Source: a virus. Taken from it: DNA of 37,965 nt. The stretch's first letter is position 1, and the number at the start of each line of letters is the position of its first letter. A program made the position numbers and the translations under genes. Below, piece by piece: positions 5,185 through 26,019 of this stretch. The stretch is from positions 1 to 37,965 of IMG/VR virus record IMGVR_UViG_3300021364_000066, one strand, 5' to 3'. The notes under the pieces are model-generated. The model did no database searches and was not told the origin of the DNA. It saw nothing but the letters and a program-made list of their open reading frames with translations.

Positions 5185-6896
5185 GCTACTAACCTCCCAA
5201 CTGCGGTGTTAGCCGCGATCTCCTGTATTGAAAACCCTGTGTTTTGAACCTCGGCCGTAAGCCCAACCCTAAAGAACGTGCCCGATCCCATTGTGTTCAC
5301 CTTGTTTCTCCATACGCCAGTGTTGGGGCCTATATATTCACTCACCCCCCACTCAGCTACGTTGTATTCCGTTGACCCCTTCGGGTCTGTTTTAAAGTCA
5401 TAACTAAAATTCAGATAGCCATCAAAGCCCCACAACGCTGTAGCGTTAATCGGTATAGCCTGGGAGCTAAGTAAATAGATGATTGACTTGGAAAAGACAT
5501 CCAGCATCTGACCTCCGGATATTCCTAAAGCCATAGACTCAAACCGGAACTCGTAAGAAAACGCATCGTCGAAGCCCTCATAAGCCAAGACACCCCTGTT
5601 TTCCCTGCCGCCCAAATAAGGGATGCTTTTATTAAGCGTCTCAGCAAAATACATGGAGGCAAAGTGGCAATCAGTCCAGCGGGTTACTCTTGCTCCACCA
5701 GTGCTTGATGGCCTCTCAGTATTAAATGCATAAGCCATGCCGGTGCTTCTGAACAAAGCAACAAACAGAGCCTTGTTAGGGAAATAGCAGAGCCTTATTC
5801 CTTTCACCAGCGCGTCAGAGTCGCGCTCTATTCTCACCATCTCCATGAAGTCTCGCTTCACATTTAGTGATGGCTCAGCTACAGGATTTGATTTCTCCTG
5901 AATAACACGACCAATAGAGCGAATCCCCGTGTCATCACAGAACACCACATCTGTACCGGTATTGCAGATCGCGTCTCTTTCTACAAGGCCTACATTGGAA
6001 ATAGCATCCTGAAGAAACAACCCATTCTCACCAGCAGGATCACCGTTGCCTGCATTGCCATAGAGCAGAATAGACTGCCTGCCAAAGACAATCAGAAAGC
6101 CATTGTGAGCATGGATGTTGACGATCTCGTCATACTCAATAGGCCAGTACTCAGAAACATTGATCTTACCGCCAGTATTGAAGTCATCTTCTGGGTCTGC
6201 GCTTGCGTCATACCACTGGTCTTCCCTAAGAAGATCAGAGTAGTAGATAGTCTGATAGTCACCACCCACACCAGACACCCATAATCGGCCATAGGCAGAG
6301 ATAGCAATGTCGCCATCAATAGAAGCTATGTCTGTTGGAGGGGTATGCTCTACAGCTTGCCAAGCACCAGCCCCGTCATACTTCATAAATGGCAGGTCTT
6401 TGGCAAACAAGAACAGGTCATCTTTGAAATGAACGTACAGGGATCGCTCTAGCCCATTGCTGGTCGGCATATCGGGGAAAGTGCATTGCTTCAGGCCAGC
6501 ACCATCATTCCAGTAGAGCCGATATTCAGAAGGCTGTTCCTTGTCAAAAGCAAAGGTGTTGATCTGCTCTTCTGAGTTCCAATCTATTCTCGTAACAGGC
6601 ATAGACTCTGGAACATAGGTTCCCAAGAGTGCCGTGCAAACTACATGGTGATTAGCCTTGTCAAAAGAAGCAGAGATTGCTGTGATGTCCACATTCGGAT
6701 AACTGCCCAGCTCTCCTGCCTGAACATCCACCGACAAAGCAAACATCTCCCTAGCCGCAATCCTGCCTACCCTATCAATCACGCAGTTGTCGGCTTTAAG
6801 GGCATAGCTTAGGTCGCCACCAATAGGGTCAAACTCAGTGTTGACCCCCTGAAAGCCAACGCCTTTAATGCTGAATTGTTGGTTAGGCTGAGCCAT
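5181..6896 (-). CDS. Tail tubular protein B-like (T7 gp12 type)
   Basis: The protein has 571 residues. It opens with a short polar segment and then alternates beta-rich blocks, in the style of the T7 gp12 nozzle family: an early block on unwrapping a fixed set of values (DNCVIDRVGRIAARE near residue 37), then many Trp/Tyr-Gly strands suggesting a propeller. It directly follows the gp11-like gene, and the two make the short podovirus tail tube and nozzle. T7 gp12 is nearly 800 residues, so this is a short version. The ATG at 6896 overlaps the stop of the previous gene. Family assignment is from overall pattern and gene order. Confidence 0.72.
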   Translation of the reverse strand: MAQPNQQFSIKGVGFQGVNTEFDPIGGDLSYALKADNCVIDRVGRIAAREMFALSVDVQAGELGSYPNVDITAISASFDKANHHVVCTALLGTYVPESMPVTRIDWNSEEQINTFAFDKEQPSEYRLYWNDGAGLKQCTFPDMPTSNGLERSLYVHFKDDLFLFAKDLPFMKYDGAGAWQAVEHTPPTDIASIDGDIAISAYGRLWVSGVGGDYQTIYYSDLLREDQWYDASADPEDDFNTGGKINVSEYWPIEYDEIVNIHAHNGFLIVFGRQSILLYGNAGNGDPAGENGLFLQDAISNVGLVERDAICNTGTDVVFCDDTGIRSIGRVIQEKSNPVAEPSLNVKRDFMEMVRIERDSDALVKGIRLCYFPNKALFVALFRSTGMAYAFNTERPSSTGGARVTRWTDCHFASMYFAETLNKSIPYLGGRENRGVLAYEGFDDAFSYEFRFESMALGISGGQMLDVFSKSIIYLLSSQAIPINATALWGFDGYLNFSYDFKTDPKGSTEYNVAEWGVSEYIGPNTGVWRNKVNTMGSGTFFRVGLTAEVQNTGFSIQEIAANTAVGRLVA

Positions 6897-20249: not shown

Positions 20250-22381
20250 TGCAACGGCTCCTCTTCAATAGTGACCTGAGATAGATCATTTTGCTGCTGA
20301 GTCATCATCTGTCGCAGAAGATCCTGATCTGCCGACTTCCTTTGCCTGTCTTGCTGAGCGCCTTCCATGGCAGACTGACGCTCTTGCTTTTCCATGGCCC
20401 ACTTGTCCTCATCCATTAGCATTCTGGCCAGGGTGACCTTCTTCTCAAAGTCATCGTCAACCTCGCCATCCTTATCCACATCGCTGTACTTCAGCATCAG
20501 CTCTTGTGGCGCAAGGTCTGCCTCGCTTATGTACTTCTGCGCTCTAGCGGCAGACTCGGTAGCTTGACCCTTAATGGCCTCGATCTGCGCCTGCTGTAGC
20601 GCCATCTGCACTTGAGCCTGTTGCTCTTGCATCTGCTGGGCTTGCGGGTTGGGCTGATTAGCTTGGTCAATGACAGCCAACAGCTCTTCCTTAGAGGTCA
20701 CATTGAGATGGCCAATAATGGCTTTGAGCATTGCCCCATGAACGGGGGATTGAGGGGGCACAACCTGCATAATCTGAGCAAGTTGTTGAACTTCGTACTC
20801 TCTAGCAATAACCCCAAGGCTTGAGACAACAGAGAAGTGATAATCCTTTGATGGATACTTCTCTGGATCAAACTGCATATACCGCCAAGCAGTTTTCTTA
20901 ATCAGAGGCTTGAAGAAGGATTCTTGGAAATTCACCAGAGTCCTTCTCTGGCGCTTCATCACAGCGCCCATCGACATTGATATGCCTGCGGCAGTTGTGT
21001 CGCTTGATGGCCCTTTCTGCATCTCTGCAGCATCAACACCGCCAGTAGCCTGCTGAACCATCATCTGCAGAGATTGAGCCTGATTAAAACTGATCTGATT
21101 GAGCTGCCCAAAGTTGAAGGGCATCAAGGCATCCTGCGGCGCACCATTGGTCAACAGCATCTTGCCGGGACGCACCTCAAACTTGTCCCCTCTTGGGATT
21201 CTTGTGGCATCTACCGCCATCATGGGGTGTGTAGTTAAGGCTAGAGCATCAATCCTTGCCCTCATTTCAGCGTCCAAAGCCTTTTGGCTCATGTAGCCCT
21301 TTTCACAAACGCCTCGACCCCAGAACCTAGATGGCACTACGTCCCATGGGAAGGCAACAATAGGCCGGTCCTTACACATATAGGGGCTGGCTTGAGCCTT
21401 AAGTATCTGGCCATCACCTACAACAACTACCGCCTCTGTATAGAGCTGATCTACCTGGTCATCAGCTAGCTCAACGCCCTCATCAAGCAAAAGGTTAGTA
21501 GGCACTAACCCGTAATATCGCTTTATATGGACTTTTGACTTGGGTTGGCTGGTGATCTCAGGGTCAGCTTCGATTTCTGTATGAGACGGGTCTTCAGTAA
21601 CCGAGACATCATCACGATAGATGCCTGATTCTTGAAGCATCTGCACATGATGAATGGATACAAACTCATCCACGCACACACCTAGCGCACTAGAAATACA
21701 GGTCGCGTTAGGGTCAATAAGGAAATTGCGCGGCTGAACAGGATTGAGCCTAACAATAGGGCGAGTTTTCTTTTCTACCCCATACTCAACTAGGTTAGTG
21801 CCCTCTGGCATCCCCTCCATTGGCTTTGTGGCAGGGATGTACTCAGTGCTGTCCTCAATAACAAGCTCCCCAATACCTGTGCCAAAGACAGCGGCATTGA
21901 TAAGGATCTCGCCAATAGCGGCTCTGTAGTTAGCTCGCTCCATATCGTGATGAAGCCGAGATCTGACTGCATGAGCCTCTTGAGCATTAACACCACCACC
22001 CTGACCCGTGGGCTGTGGGGCCACGCTTGGGTTTGGGAGTGATTGCCCTTGGGGAGCAGGGGGTGGATTCTGTGGAGCCTGCTGCTTGACACGTTGTTCA
22101 TCATCAACAATGTCAAACATAAAGGCTTGAGAAAAGCTGGCAGTCTCTATTTCTGCCACGGAGGACTCAACAGCCTGTTGCAAAGCAGGAGCAATGATCT
22201 TTGAGCGTTCACTCTGGCGCATTTTGTCAGACTCAGACCACTTGCCGCGCCACAGTCTGTAGTACTCCTCATGGGTTTTGGCGTAATTGCTCTCATAGTG
22301 GTCACGCCAATCCTGTGTGGTGGTTTCTATCCACTCACACAGCCCATGATCTATACCTAAATGCTCCAGATCTTCTTTCAT
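20246..22381 (-). CDS. Portal protein (head-tail connector)
   Basis: The protein has 711 residues, the size of P22-type portals, and lies directly after the large terminase. The N-terminal block YRLWRGKWSESDKMRQSERSK and the following APALQQAVESSVAEIE are typical of this portal family. Next come a Pro/Gln-rich insert near 105-135, the core, and a Gln-rich helical end (about 590-640) that would form the barrel. Near residue 655 a loop DVDKDGEVDDDFE looks like a calcium-binding EF-hand loop. The portal makes the dodecameric DNA channel. The ATG shares one base with the terminase stop (TAATG). Confidence 0.85.
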   Translation of the reverse strand: MKEDLEHLGIDHGLCEWIETTTQDWRDHYESNYAKTHEEYYRLWRGKWSESDKMRQSERSKIIAPALQQAVESSVAEIETASFSQAFMFDIVDDEQRVKQQAPQNPPPAPQGQSLPNPSVAPQPTGQGGGVNAQEAHAVRSRLHHDMERANYRAAIGEILINAAVFGTGIGELVIEDSTEYIPATKPMEGMPEGTNLVEYGVEKKTRPIVRLNPVQPRNFLIDPNATCISSALGVCVDEFVSIHHVQMLQESGIYRDDVSVTEDPSHTEIEADPEITSQPKSKVHIKRYYGLVPTNLLLDEGVELADDQVDQLYTEAVVVVGDGQILKAQASPYMCKDRPIVAFPWDVVPSRFWGRGVCEKGYMSQKALDAEMRARIDALALTTHPMMAVDATRIPRGDKFEVRPGKMLLTNGAPQDALMPFNFGQLNQISFNQAQSLQMMVQQATGGVDAAEMQKGPSSDTTAAGISMSMGAVMKRQRRTLVNFQESFFKPLIKKTAWRYMQFDPEKYPSKDYHFSVVSSLGVIAREYEVQQLAQIMQVVPPQSPVHGAMLKAIIGHLNVTSKEELLAVIDQANQPNPQAQQMQEQQAQVQMALQQAQIEAIKGQATESAARAQKYISEADLAPQELMLKYSDVDKDGEVDDDFEKKVTLARMLMDEDKWAMEKQERQSAMEGAQQDRQRKSADQDLLRQMMTQQQNDLSQVTIEEEPLQ

Positions 22382-23628
22382 TAATAACCTGCCACGGCGT
22401 CAAGGGCTTCCCAATCCTGTTCCAGCTCAATGCCATCCAGATAAGCCACCTGGGCAATCTGATCGCAATAGCTAAGCGCGTCTAAAAGGTCATCGTGAAC
22501 AAGAACGGATGGGAAGTTCGCCGCCTCGTCAATAAAGCGTTCGTTCCAGTCCCCTTTTTTCAAGTGAACTAGCCCGTTTTCAAATCGGCCTGCCAAGGCC
22601 CATGCAATTCTGTCAGTCTTTTTCTGATTGCCGTGGGTGAGCTGGTCAATCACAAACAATCTCGACTTTCGGCGCATCTCATCCTGCAGGGGAGACATCA
22701 CAGCCTGCTGAGCAATCCCTTTTTCTATGCCTACCCTTCTAGGGCGGTACTTCTCAACAGCCTGAAAGATCTTTTGCACAGTTTCGTCCAAAGACCACTG
22801 CCCGTAGATAATGTCTTCAACGTACCAATGGCCATGAGGGGTGACTTTTGTCACAGCAATAGCAGAATTGTCGCGTTTTTTAGCCCTCCGCTGCCCCTGC
22901 TGTTTAAAGCCTGCCAAGTCAATAGAGATGTAGTACTCACCCTCTACCTTGATCTCGTCATAAATGTCGAATTTGTCAGGATCGAAGAATCCAGAGGTTC
23001 TGGCGTCAAAGCTAGCCATAAATTCTTGCTGGAAAGAGAACGACGGCAGGGTTTGTCTGGCGTGTTCAATCTCAGCCTTGTCTACTAGGGGGTTATCAAA
23101 GCTAGTAAAGTGGAAAGATGCCCAATCAGGCCACGTTCTTCCCCCAATAAACAGGTCATAGAAGTGATTTCTGCCCTCTGGTGTGCCAATAAAGATGGCA
23201 GAGCCCTTTCTGTCAGCCAGTGCGGGTCTGAGAATAGACTCCCAGACATCAGGCTTCATAAAAGCCAGCTCATCCATGACCAAATGCTTAAGGCTTACAC
23301 CACGAAGCGTGTCAGGCCGGTCAGCACCCTTTAAGTAAATAGTGTTGCCGCCAGCTAACGTAATCTCTAGGTTGTTGACATGGGACTTTTCAATAATATC
23401 GCCAGCAATATCAAAGATAGTGGCCCACATTACGTCTCGAGCTTGCCCCTGGGTGGGGGCTACATAGAAAGTCTTCCCCTGTTTTTCATTTAGGGCATTC
23501 AAGATAAGAGAAATAGCGGCTAAATGAGACTTCCCAGTACGCCGACCAGCAGCAATCACCTTAAAGCGGGATTGATCCTCCATAACTTTCTGCTGCCAAG
23601 GCAATAAGGCTAGGTCGAGGTTAGCCAT
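22381..23628 (-). CDS. terL: Terminase large subunit (DNA packaging ATPase and nuclease)
   Basis: The protein has 415 residues. The Walker A motif is GRRTGKSH at 28-35, Walker B LVMDE at 118-122 and the coupling motif IGTPEG at 149-154. The C-terminal RNase H-like nuclease shows Asp239 in ISIDLAG, Asp255 in KRDNSAI and a late acidic pair in DLLDALSYC. This motor drives DNA into the prohead and cuts concatemers. The gene follows the small terminase by a one-base overlap and precedes the portal. The ATPase and nuclease residues all appear intact. Confidence 0.94.
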   Translation of the reverse strand: MANLDLALLPWQQKVMEDQSRFKVIAAGRRTGKSHLAAISLILNALNEKQGKTFYVAPTQGQARDVMWATIFDIAGDIIEKSHVNNLEITLAGGNTIYLKGADRPDTLRGVSLKHLVMDELAFMKPDVWESILRPALADRKGSAIFIGTPEGRNHFYDLFIGGRTWPDWASFHFTSFDNPLVDKAEIEHARQTLPSFSFQQEFMASFDARTSGFFDPDKFDIYDEIKVEGEYYISIDLAGFKQQGQRRAKKRDNSAIAVTKVTPHGHWYVEDIIYGQWSLDETVQKIFQAVEKYRPRRVGIEKGIAQQAVMSPLQDEMRRKSRLFVIDQLTHGNQKKTDRIAWALAGRFENGLVHLKKGDWNERFIDEAANFPSVLVHDDLLDALSYCDQIAQVAYLDGIELEQDWEALDAVAGY

Positions 23629-24029
23629 TACTGTATAGAGACGGTATCACCGTCCACATCCTTCTCTTTAGTGTCTACAGGAAGGCTTTGGCCTTCTACA
23701 GAGCTAACCTGCAGACCAGAAATGTTGATCTGAACAGCAGTGGATTTCTTGGAATCTAGAGAAAAGCCAGCATTGGGGAGTAAACGATCAGCTACCATCT
23801 TCATGGCCTGCATCTGACCGTCATGCTCATCATTCATTGCTATATCAAATAGCTTGTTAACAAAGTGCTTAGCCTTGTCATGGGTCAATAGCTCAGCTTT
23901 CAGAGCATGGAGCTGACGAGTTTGCTCCCTAGCAGACATCAAATGCCTGCCAGTCTCCTTTTTCTTATCAGCTATCTCCTTCCTTTTAGCCTTGCGCTTA
24001 GCGACATCGGCCTCAAGATCATATCCCAT
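23628..24029 (-). CDS. terS: Terminase small subunit
   Basis: The protein has 133 residues. A Lys-rich N-terminus with helical heptads is followed by the block FVNKLFDIAMNDEHDGQMQAM (about 62-82) and ADRLLPNAG, a pattern common in small terminases. The gene is immediately upstream of the large subunit. It recognises the packaging site and loads the motor. The ATG at 24029 has no clear Shine-Dalgarno site, and the leader from the predicted promoter is only about 26 nt and largely made of a palindromic operator. A second Met at residue 30 is a possible shorter start. Confidence 0.8.
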   Translation of the reverse strand: MGYDLEADVAKRKAKRKEIADKKKETGRHLMSAREQTRQLHALKAELLTHDKAKHFVNKLFDIAMNDEHDGQMQAMKMVADRLLPNAGFSLDSKKSTAVQINISGLQVSSVEGQSLPVDTKEKDVDGDTVSIQ

Positions 24030-24036
24030 AGCTAAT

Positions 24037-24052
24037 TAGCAACTATTTGCTA
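24037..24052. promoter_or_regulatory. Operator-like palindrome O1
   Basis: TAGCAACTATTTGCTA, a 16-bp near-perfect inverted repeat (TAGCAA / TTGCTA with a 4-bp centre). It falls at about +3 to +18 of the predicted leftward late promoter, directly before the small terminase gene. It is the first of three sites in 135 bp sharing the consensus TAGYAA-N4-TTRCTA. Confidence 0.7.
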
Positions 24053-24061
24053 GTTTCGCGC

Positions 24062-24091
24062 ACTATAAACCCCTAGTAATCAAGAATGCAA
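24062..24091 (-). promoter_or_regulatory. Predicted leftward late promoter
   Basis: On the minus strand TTGCAT (24091-24086), an 18-bp spacer and TATAGT (24067-24062) resemble a sigma-70 promoter with a good -10 and weak -35. Transcription would begin near 24055 and run into terS. A perfect TTGACA lies 16 bases further upstream (24107-24102) but lacks a good -10. The nearby operator O1 would let the phage repressor silence the late operon. Confidence 0.45.
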
Positions 24092-24100
24092 CCATCGAAT

Positions 24101-24130
24101 TTGTCAATCGAATAGCAAATGTTTGCTAAT
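24101..24130 (+). promoter_or_regulatory. Predicted rightward promoter with operator O2 inside
   Basis: TTGTCA (24101-24106), 18 bases, then GCTAAT (24125-24130). The perfect palindrome TAGCAAATGTTTGCTA (O2, 24113-24128) occupies the spacer and -10, so a bound repressor would block polymerase. The transcript would start near 24137 and could run to the terminator at 24285-24313. Confidence 0.5.
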
Positions 24131-24154
24131 TTTTCCGATTTACTTGATTTTCCC

Positions 24155-24170
24155 TAGTAAAAATATGCTA
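24155..24170. promoter_or_regulatory. Operator-like palindrome O3
   Basis: TAGTAAAAATATGCTA follows the same consensus as O1 and O2 with one imperfect centre position. It lies 42 bp from O2 and just downstream of the predicted rightward start, as expected for an auxiliary repressor site. Confidence 0.6.
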
Positions 24171-24284
24171 GTCTGGGTCGGATGGTCGGTTTTCTACCGC
24201 AGTCCAGCCGTAGAGTTCCGTTCATGTAGTACCTCAAGAGCTAGGTTCACATTAGCTTGTTGCTAATCATGCTATACGAGCAAC

Positions 24285-24313
24285 AGGGGGGGTTGTTTCC
24301 TCCCCTTTTTTTT
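24285..24313 (+). terminator. Rho-independent terminator
   Basis: AGGGG (24285-24289) pairs with CCCCT (24302-24306), followed at once by eight T (24306-24313). Seven consecutive G allow several registers. It would separate the control-region transcript from the structured RNA that follows. Confidence 0.75.
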
Positions 24314-24319
24314 CCAAAA

Positions 24320-25190
24320 ATCACCTTTTGCATATCTGAGTGGCACCTCCTACTGGAATATCCGGGACTTTCCCCACCGGGGGTATGCGCGACTAGACGT
24401 TTGAGCCGTCTGAATCGGTAAGAAGGCGCGTGAATGGACCGAAGTAACAGATGGGAGCCACCAGACACACTTAAGCACCGAAACAGTTAACAGGTTAGTA
24501 GCCACTAACATTCACGTCTTATATATTAAACCTGAGTACATTCAGCAACTAAATCAACTATCGCTGTAAGGATCTACGATCTGCAAAAGTGTCCGAATCC
24601 CCTGATGGACTACTTATGCTTAGCCGACACCACCGCCGAAATCATCTGCTTCTAAACATCTTCAGCGCATTCACACGGTCTGACTTGAAAGAGCCTACGC
24701 AGCTGACTTGGGCTAAGATCTGTGTACCGTCCAGACCACTAGATCGTAGGCACTCAACACCCACGAAGTCGGTGAATCCGTAAGTCCTGCGTTGACAACC
24801 GTCTGCTCTTAGCCGATCTCCTTGCCGCTACCGTAGCTTCCTACTGCTTCATCCCACCAATCACCACGCTAAGTGTTGTGGCATAACCCTGATCTTCCCC
24901 TTCCTTTCTAAGAATTTCTAAGCCCTGCCCGTCCTCCCAAGTCATACATCGATTGAGCGACTGGTATAGGCCGCGCACTAAACGATCTCACAGTGAGTTC
25001 TGAAGTAAACCTTGCGCCTTTTATCAACGCCTAGAACCGCCTTTATGTTGGCCCCAAGTCAGCGGGTTCTAGGCTGGACTTGAGGTTGCGCAAGGTCGGC
25101 TGGCGCCGCCCTTCGGGTGACTTCAGAACGTCACGGTGAGGCTCGTAAGTGCGGCCAATACCGGTCGCTAAATCGTGTATGACTAAGGAG
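24320..25190 (+). ncRNA. Large structured non-coding RNA, candidate (about 870 nt)
   Basis: About 870 bases without a credible gene lie between a terminator and the 101-residue gene. The 5' part has a helix 24335-24348 with 24453-24465 enclosing hairpins at 24372-24382 and 24395-24411, a 6-bp hairpin at 24494-24509, and an 11-bp interrupted hairpin at 24583-24619. The middle has long-range complementarities: 24704-24710 with 24938-24944, and 24711-24718 with 24807-24814. The 3' domain (24950-25175) is far stronger. G-U pairs at 24348-24453 and 24962-25163 favour the plus strand. Size, setting and pseudoknotted design recall the phage-borne GOLLD and ROOL RNAs, but I cannot match a consensus by eye. 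The 5' boundary and promoter are unknown. Confidence 0.6.
24950..25175 (+). ncRNA. Highly structured 3' domain of the RNA, with pseudoknot
   Basis: P1 pairs 24950-24974 with 25151-25175 in strict register: 22 Watson-Crick pairs, one G-U, and two purine mismatches. P2 pairs 24987-25006 with 25120-25140 (19 pairs, one mismatch, one bulge). P3 pairs 25009-25017 with 25088-25096 (9 pairs). P4 pairs 25029-25038 with 25065-25074 (10 pairs). The P4 loop CAAGTC (25055-25060) pairs with GACTTG just 3' of P4 (25077-25082), making an H-type pseudoknot. A TTCG-capped hairpin may form near 25110-25117. The domain ends 15 bases before the AAGGAGG site of the next gene. Confidence 0.8.
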
Positions 25191-25197
25191 GCCAGAC

Positions 25198-25503
25198 ATG
25201 GCTAAGAAAGTTCTAAGAAAGAAAGCGAAAGACCAGGTTTATGACAACACTAACCGTGGCGCTTGCTGGGTGAATCAGTACGTCACCTACGGCATCGACA
25301 AGGAGACCGGAGAGCAGAAGGTCGTCAGCCCAGAACTAACGGGCTTCATCGACGTCGAGGGCGTTGAGTACGATCTAGCGGCCTGGCCGGTGCACAGCTC
25401 TAACCCCAAGGCACCAGCGTGGTCTTTCAAAGTCACACCGCGCAAACACGCTGAAGATGAAGAAACAGAAGACTTCGTCGATGGCGTCGCCAAAGCTAAG
25501 TAG
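25198..25503 (+). CDS. Unknown protein following the structured RNA, 101 aa; OB-fold-like pattern
   Basis: The start has a near-perfect AAGGAGG at good spacing. The N-terminus is very basic (AKKVLRKKAKDQ), the middle carries TGFIDVEGVEYDLAAW and then WSFKVTPR, and the tail is acidic (DEETEDFVD). The G-x-I/V-x-x-E/D-G-x-E...W pattern resembles the SSB-like 86-residue protein at 32139-32399 (KGTVKMDGKEKNVSVW), suggesting a small nucleic-acid-binding beta protein. That resemblance is by eye. The gene lies between the RNA and a terminator, so RNA and protein may form one unit. The codons are richer in G and C than in neighbouring early genes. Confidence 0.7.
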   Translation: MAKKVLRKKAKDQVYDNTNRGACWVNQYVTYGIDKETGEQKVVSPELTGFIDVEGVEYDLAAWPVHSSNPKAPAWSFKVTPRKHAEDEETEDFVDGVAKAK

Positions 25504-25512
25504 TAACCATCA

Positions 25513-25531
25513 GGGGCTTCGGCCCCTTTTT
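25513..25531 (+). terminator. Rho-independent terminator
   Basis: GGGGC (25513-25517), TTCG loop, GCCCC (25522-25526), then five T. The flanking A and T extend the stem by one pair. It ends the unit made of the structured RNA and the 101-residue gene. Confidence 0.9.
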
Positions 25532-25561
25532 CATATCTCCAATTTAAAAGAGACAAAAGAG

Positions 25562-25714
25562 ATGAAGACACTGACTAATGCAGAACGACAAAAGAGATGG
25601 AGACAAAAGAATCGTGGAGTCTCATTAAAACTAACTCTTTCAGAAGCTAGGTGGCTTGCCGAGAACTGCAAATACCCAAGCCTACGGAACAAAATCCGAA
25701 AGCAGCTAGTTTAA
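25562..25714 (+). CDS. Small basic protein, 50 aa
   Basis: I take the ATG at 25562 because it gives the familiar start MKTLTNAERQKRWRQKNRGV, seen in many small phage and plasmid proteins; an upstream in-frame ATG would run through the terminator. It is strongly basic and probably one or two helices, with a second amphipathic part LTLSEARWLAENC. It may bind nucleic acid as a small regulator. No function is established for it here. Confidence 0.6.
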   Translation: MKTLTNAERQKRWRQKNRGVSLKLTLSEARWLAENCKYPSLRNKIRKQLV

Positions 25715-25780
25715 GACTAACAGCTAAGCCACAAAGCTAAGGTGACAAAACGCTACTGGAGATGCGGAAACACACACAAT

Positions 25781-25797
25781 CGTAAACACACTAGGAG
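25781..25797 (+). promoter_or_regulatory. Start-associated leader repeat, copy 1
   Basis: CGTAAACACACTAGGAG supplies the Shine-Dalgarno site of the gene at 25804. Closely similar strings precede the genes at 27865 and 29945. Only the TAGGAG part is explained by ribosome binding; the conserved CGTAAA part is not. Confidence 0.5.
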
Positions 25798-25803
25798 ATG
25801 CAG

Positions 25804-26019
25804 ATGGAAATTTACTACACAACACACCGCGAAATCCTCGACACCACACCAGAGGATATGCACTTCGACTTCCCCTTCCTGATACACACCGACACACACC
25901 CCAACAACATCGGCACCAAGCTACTCAAGCTGCACCCCGAAGCTGATGTTGTCTCCTTCGCCATCAAGCCTGCCCATTTCTCAGACATTGAAATCTATTC
26001 AGTAAGGAGAGGGTCATGA
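25804..26019 (+). CDS. Small early protein, 71 aa
   Basis: I choose the ATG at 25804, which is six bases after AGGAG; the ATG at 25798 abuts the ribosome site and is unlikely. The protein is acidic and His/Asp/Thr-rich (DFPFLIHTDTHPNN), with no motif I recognise. Its stop overlaps the next ATG as ATGA, so it heads a coupled string of four small genes. Confidence 0.6.
   Translation: MEIYYTTHREILDTTPEDMHFDFPFLIHTDTHPNNIGTKLLKLHPEADVVSFAIKPAHFSDIEIYSVRRGS

Follow-up and report, generated by a model that had tools for sequence, protein, structure and literature searches.

In trp-type attenuators, an upstream RNA competes with one half of a terminator for pairing, and T4 gene 32 is under autogenous control via a short pseudoknot leader. 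The phage locus described here resembles the former in that an upstream RNA and a terminator half would likewise compete, with translation able to decide between them; it differs in that the competing strand is a gene-length antisense about 900 nt upstream, with pairing that spans the whole coding sequence. Like T4 gene 32, it concerns the mRNA of a putative ssDNA-binding protein with a structured leader, but the short pseudoknot is replaced by a gene-long hairpin, and binding by the protein is hypothetical. Template switching is a documented mechanism by which hairpins are made and maintained (PMC8794818; PMC8604942), and the resulting quasipalindromes share with this locus inverted arms that are homogenised within a genome and columns that have changed together; here, however, the arms are ~400 nt long and contain a whole gene, and islands of the left arm keep their own letters. 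GOLLD and ROOL are likewise large structured RNAs, some of them in phage genomes, but they have their own Rfam models and assemble into ornate homo-oligomers (PMC12286853), whereas this locus yields one rod with a coding sequence inside and no Rfam match. The cabRNA of staphylococcal phages is also structured and lies near the terminase genes, and it activates a CBASS cyclase to which it binds (PMC10686824); it comprises ~400 nt from inside terS/terL, whereas the present structure is a gene-length rod between terS and the early genes. No precedent for a gene-length attenuator, or for a gene-length phage hairpin of this kind, was found in the open-licence literature searched.

The window, that is, the whole stretch of 37,965 nt that was analysed, is an IMG/VR virus contig (IMGVR_UViG_3300021364_000066) that also encodes an integrase and a repressor-like HTH protein. 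Its terminase is less than 45% identical to named phages among the matches listed; the large subunit lies at 22381-23628 (minus strand), and the likely small subunit (23628-24029, minus strand) was assigned by position only, with no family match. The small subunit is followed by 1.17 kb without a gene and then by rightward early genes from 25198. Operator-like inverted TTAGCAA/TTGCTAA sites lie at 24034-24052, 24113-24131 and 24252-24268, between the two divergent operons. An upstream leader terminator (24285-24308, plus strand) occupies the same place in three related contigs (L002, L004 and L005). The only sigma-70-like match in 23900-26000 is a promoter-like TAGCCA-17-TATATT on the plus strand at 24499-24527, just before the rod; a match of this kind is no more frequent than expected by chance, and its TATATA block is kept in the same three contigs.

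Self-comparison of the window identified one long inverted repeat, an imperfect palindrome of ~960 nt at 24578-25537. The outer arms are 77% alike over 437 aligned columns (left arm against the reverse complement of 25120-25537), and the minimum free energy (MFE) structure, at about -502 to -507 kcal/mol, has 327 pairs in one rod without branches; the left arm, core and right arm folded singly give -87, -90 and -122 kcal/mol, respectively. An assembly artefact was ruled out because the arms are only ~77% alike and the same palindrome is present in two other IMG/VR records. The right arm (25157-25537, plus strand) comprises the end of a 5'UTR, a Shine-Dalgarno sequence, a coding sequence and a terminator; the left arm (24578-24971) is an antisense, non-coding copy of this gene arm, broken in all minus-strand frames; and the core (24972-25156) consists of the gene's 5'UTR and its inverted copy, with boundaries that coincide with that 5'UTR. 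Mismatches between the arms are not confined to synonymous sites, being spread evenly over codon positions at 19/22/20. This arrangement indicates that the palindrome arose by inverted duplication of the gene together with its 5'UTR and terminator, which would have left a dead antisense copy directly upstream of an early gene. By sequence and folding, any rightward transcript from upstream would carry both copies and form a predicted rod of ~327 bp capped by the core.

The initial annotation had described 24950-25175 as a strongly structured RNA domain of 226 nt. Its fold is strong and clearly beyond chance, at -122.3 kcal/mol on the plus strand against -75.6 +/- 4.6 for 200 dinucleotide shuffles (z -10.07; 0/200 as good), and the nested inner helices were recovered as described. 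The proposed boundary did not hold: pairing runs unbroken outward to 24578 and 25537, and the domain does not stand alone but is the apex of the gene-length palindrome. The closing helix exists as a 25-pair outer stack (5+12+8), but as a mid-rod stretch rather than an end. Both strands of the proposed pseudoknot are present (CAAGUC in the innermost loop, GACUUG downstream), but one of its six pairs is lost in L005 and none covaries. A U-G pair in the closing helix had been read as pointing to the plus strand, an argument contradicted by the minus strand of the domain, which folds equally well (z -10.63), and by the whole palindrome, whose plus strand in the window has more A.C mismatches than G.U (30 vs 12; p 0.008); on the plus strand of the L005 palindrome the two do not differ (14 vs 11). 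The grounds for a plus-strand function of 24950-25175 are weak, and its G-U pairs give no support. As the annotation had found by eye, the structure matches no tRNA, tmRNA, RNase P or group I intron: searches with Rfam 15, whose families include GOLLD, ROOL, HEARO, OLE, group I/II introns, RNase P and tmRNA, gave no match at the gathering threshold in the window and none up to E 2 in the locus (L001) and four relatives (L002, L007, L014 and L015), and ARAGORN found no tRNA or tmRNA gene in the window. A retron or DGR was rejected as well, with no RT among ~28 of the larger proteins scanned and arm differences that are not confined to A.

Two IMG/VR contigs, L002 and L005, carry the same palindrome with letters identical to each other, and a third, L004, ends within the left arm; the palindrome comparison rests on two independent sequences, the window and L002/L005. 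An inverted repeat of this size was found in none of the unrelated contigs (first-search loci plus 14 fetched later; 833 kb in total, overlaps included), and no relatives were found in bacterial genomes. A related contig, L060, contains a 101-bp inverted repeat pair of 83% identity, ~4 kb apart (1219-1318 and 5279-5378). The core is strongly kept in the second phage lineage: 7 of 185 positions differ between the window and L005, against a pS of 0.33 in the adjacent gene and 0.63 in TerL. Matches of an 18-mer of the core to L084, L086 and L087 were set aside as three chance matches.

Outside the core, the left arms of the two genomes are 75% alike and the right arms 88%. Left-right identity is 81.4 and 84.4% within a genome and 72.6 and 75.9% between genomes, a within-genome excess of 6.6 points (CI 3.9-9.6; gap-free columns), so that the arms are more alike within than between genomes, as in quasipalindromes. 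Moreover, 21 columns have changed in both arms together, against ~2 expected. This excess and these co-changes argue that the arms are not evolving independently, and independent evolution was ruled out with a dlnL of about 33. Separate recent duplications in each lineage were ruled out, since the two genomes have 25 identical mismatches, indels and a stop codon in common: codon 3 of the left-arm copy is TAG (complement of CTA at 24918-24920) in both lineages, so the copy was dead before they split. In the covariation check that the initial annotation had proposed, the co-changes lie in the outer arms only; no covariation is visible inside the core because its sequence, across the two independent sequences, hardly varies.

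The left arm is not uniform. Four islands of 11-27 nt are invariant and retain shared differences from the right arm, whereas the arm elsewhere has diverged by 25-40% between genomes. The longest identical stretch between the left arms is a 27-nt run, CCGAATCCCCTGATGGACTACTTATGC (24593-24619, plus strand), which exceeds all permutations (0/5000), keeps in each of the two genomes four letters that differ from the right arm, and forms a candidate antiterminator-like strand predicted to pair with 25507-25528. Another island, TCTGCTCTTAG at 24802-24812, resembles lambda boxA (CGCTCTTA); it is present in both left arms and not in the right arm.

The gene of the right arm (25198-25503, plus strand) encodes a 101-aa protein with a weak resemblance to phage ssDNA-binding proteins (phrog_18154, single strand DNA binding protein, E 1.7e-4); its AlphaFold model, with a pLDDT of 54, is too weak for a fold search. 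The protein is 87% identical in L083, and a dN/dS of 0.17 indicates that 25198-25503 evolves as a real protein gene. It showed no extra synonymous constraint, with a pS of 0.33 against 0.25-0.50 in most near neighbours. Its Shine-Dalgarno sequence, AAGGAGG (25184-25190, plus strand), pairs in part with left-arm 24934-24940 when the rod forms: its unpaired probability is 0.29 with the left arm and 0.68 without it in the window, and 0.16 and 0.56 in L005, so that it is predicted to be largely hidden in both genomes, by differing letters. The intrinsic terminator (25512-25532, plus strand) is predicted to lose its 5' half to the left arm once the rod forms. When the left arm is present, the hairpin pairs 0.0 of 16 terminator nucleotides; when it is absent, the figure is 11.3 (window) and 11.8 (L005). 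The antiterminator duplex reaches -26.7 against -10.3 kcal/mol.

We favour, with a probability of about 40%, a reading in which the rod acts in cis as an over-sized attenuator that hides the Shine-Dalgarno sequence and blocks the terminator. As the polymerase makes the gene strand, this strand would zip onto the antisense strand already transcribed; since transcription reaches the left arm first, the rod could zip behind the polymerase and reach the terminator before its completion, and folds of the growing transcript agree with this order. The zipped rod is predicted to hide the Shine-Dalgarno sequence and take up the 5' half of the terminator, in which state the gene would be poorly translated and transcription would continue into the early operon. 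Ribosomes, or the SSB-like protein itself, may hold the strands apart, and the gene would then be translated and the terminator would form. The broader proposal, that the retained antisense pseudogene is a built-in regulator which places the entire mRNA of an early gene in a rod of >300 bp and couples its translation to read-through of its own terminator, we consider somewhat unlikely.

The attenuator reading is favoured because the rod and the terminator are mutually exclusive in folding, in L005 as in the window, and because the terminator-blocking strand is the longest invariant run of the left arm. It is further supported by arms that stay complementary across two genomes around a nearly invariant core, by the persistence of a non-coding 400-nt arm though TerL synonymous sites differ by 63%, and by wider relatives, in which a long structured sequence likewise directly precedes the early genes. 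Several results count against it: plus-strand G.U is not favoured over A.C; the left arm outside the islands diverges near-neutrally, with 69 left-only changes that break or make pairs; and the data are fitted equally well by templating with no selection. Nor does it explain how the gene would be translated well, since the sigma-70-like scan of 23900-26000 found no promoter yielding a gene transcript without the left arm. The SSB assignment is weak as well.

The closest rival, in our view a real if doubtful prospect, is a functionless old inverted duplication in which DNA polymerase would switch template inside the imperfect palindrome, a process known to create and maintain hairpins (PMC8794818; PMC8604942), and so overwrite left-arm letters with those of the right arm. 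The reverse direction would harm the gene and hence be purged, and only the core, as 5'UTR, would be constrained. Consistent with such one-way copying, the left arm has followed ~21 of the right-arm changes and has not followed 7, whereas the 69 left-only changes are unmatched; the two models fit equally well (templating-only -485.8, selection-only -485.7). Co-changed columns tend to sit away from shared mismatches (distance 11.8 vs 8.0 expected; 93rd percentile, not significant), and the L005 left arm looks mosaic near a 12-nt deletion, which gives one possible mosaic border. On the other hand, the invariant islands keep shared differences that templating would erase, and phages tend to lose junk DNA. 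Mismatches in the window are also spaced more evenly than chance (longest perfect run 10 vs 15.7 expected, P 0.025; run-length tests P 0.017-0.025), although those in L005 are not. With two genomes, selection for pairing and right-to-left copying cannot be separated.

More distant relatives that lack the rod share with the window the motif GAGTGGCACCTCC... (24334-24360), followed at the same place by ~0.65-0.9 kb of non-coding structured sequence. An early leader RNA therefore seems to be general in the phage group, and the rod appears to be a special form of one subclade. In two relatives, a candidate new structured RNA lies between the terminase and early genes (L014:5317-5756 and L015:3250-3689, both minus strand); its GATTAAGGAAAC...GTTTCC hairpin is shared with L007 and absent from the window. 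The sequence surrounding CTGAGTGGCACCTCC and a C-rich stretch after it (often CCCCTCCGG) form a shared motif at 24334-24380 of the window and in L006, L007, L008, L010-L015, L018 and L099-L102, in most carriers directly after a leader terminator; CACCTCC is similar to the anti-Shine-Dalgarno end of 16S rRNA. L006 and L099 have in common, before the leader terminator, the sequence GAAATCC...ATGGCACAGCC...CGAGAGCAGTA...GATTGATTTG, which is not obvious in the window and has the look of a small RNA with a promoter before it and a terminator after it.

A second alternative makes the core and part of the rod one domain of a larger, structured early leader that functions as an RNA itself, with antitermination or proteins of host or phage as possible targets, and treats the gene arm as incidental. 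Conservation of the core, the upstream motif shared with relatives, and their structure at the same place, in which L014 and L015 differ by 11 compensatory and 0 broken pairs among 107 predicted, are consistent with it. We nevertheless judge it improbable: the core has no recognisable sequence likeness to the structures of L007, L014 and L015, no Rfam family matches, and the core edges coincide with the gene's 5'UTR.

Less probable still is that the palindrome works as DNA, as a cruciform, replication origin or packaging site beside the terminase genes: the apex folds equally well on both strands, a plus-strand wobble signature is absent and the location between the terminase small subunit and the early genes would suit it, but no iterons, origin protein or known pac/cos signature were noticed, and distant relatives lack the palindrome. 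That the rod is a dsRNA-like molecule sensed by host defence, or a decoy for it, has a precedent in the phage RNA from terminase genes that activates a CBASS cyclase (PMC10686824), and we consider it very improbable.

If the rod is functional, inverted gene duplication would be a route to a regulator, and the mRNA of a bacterial virus would be kept near-dsRNA across an entire coding sequence. If it is not, the locus would be a clear example from nature of how copying from arm to arm over 400 nt can imitate the covariation that usually counts as proof of RNA structure. Co-changes such as those in the outer arms can also come from DNA template switching without RNA selection. Either way, a control for template switching is needed when covariation is read from long hairpins.
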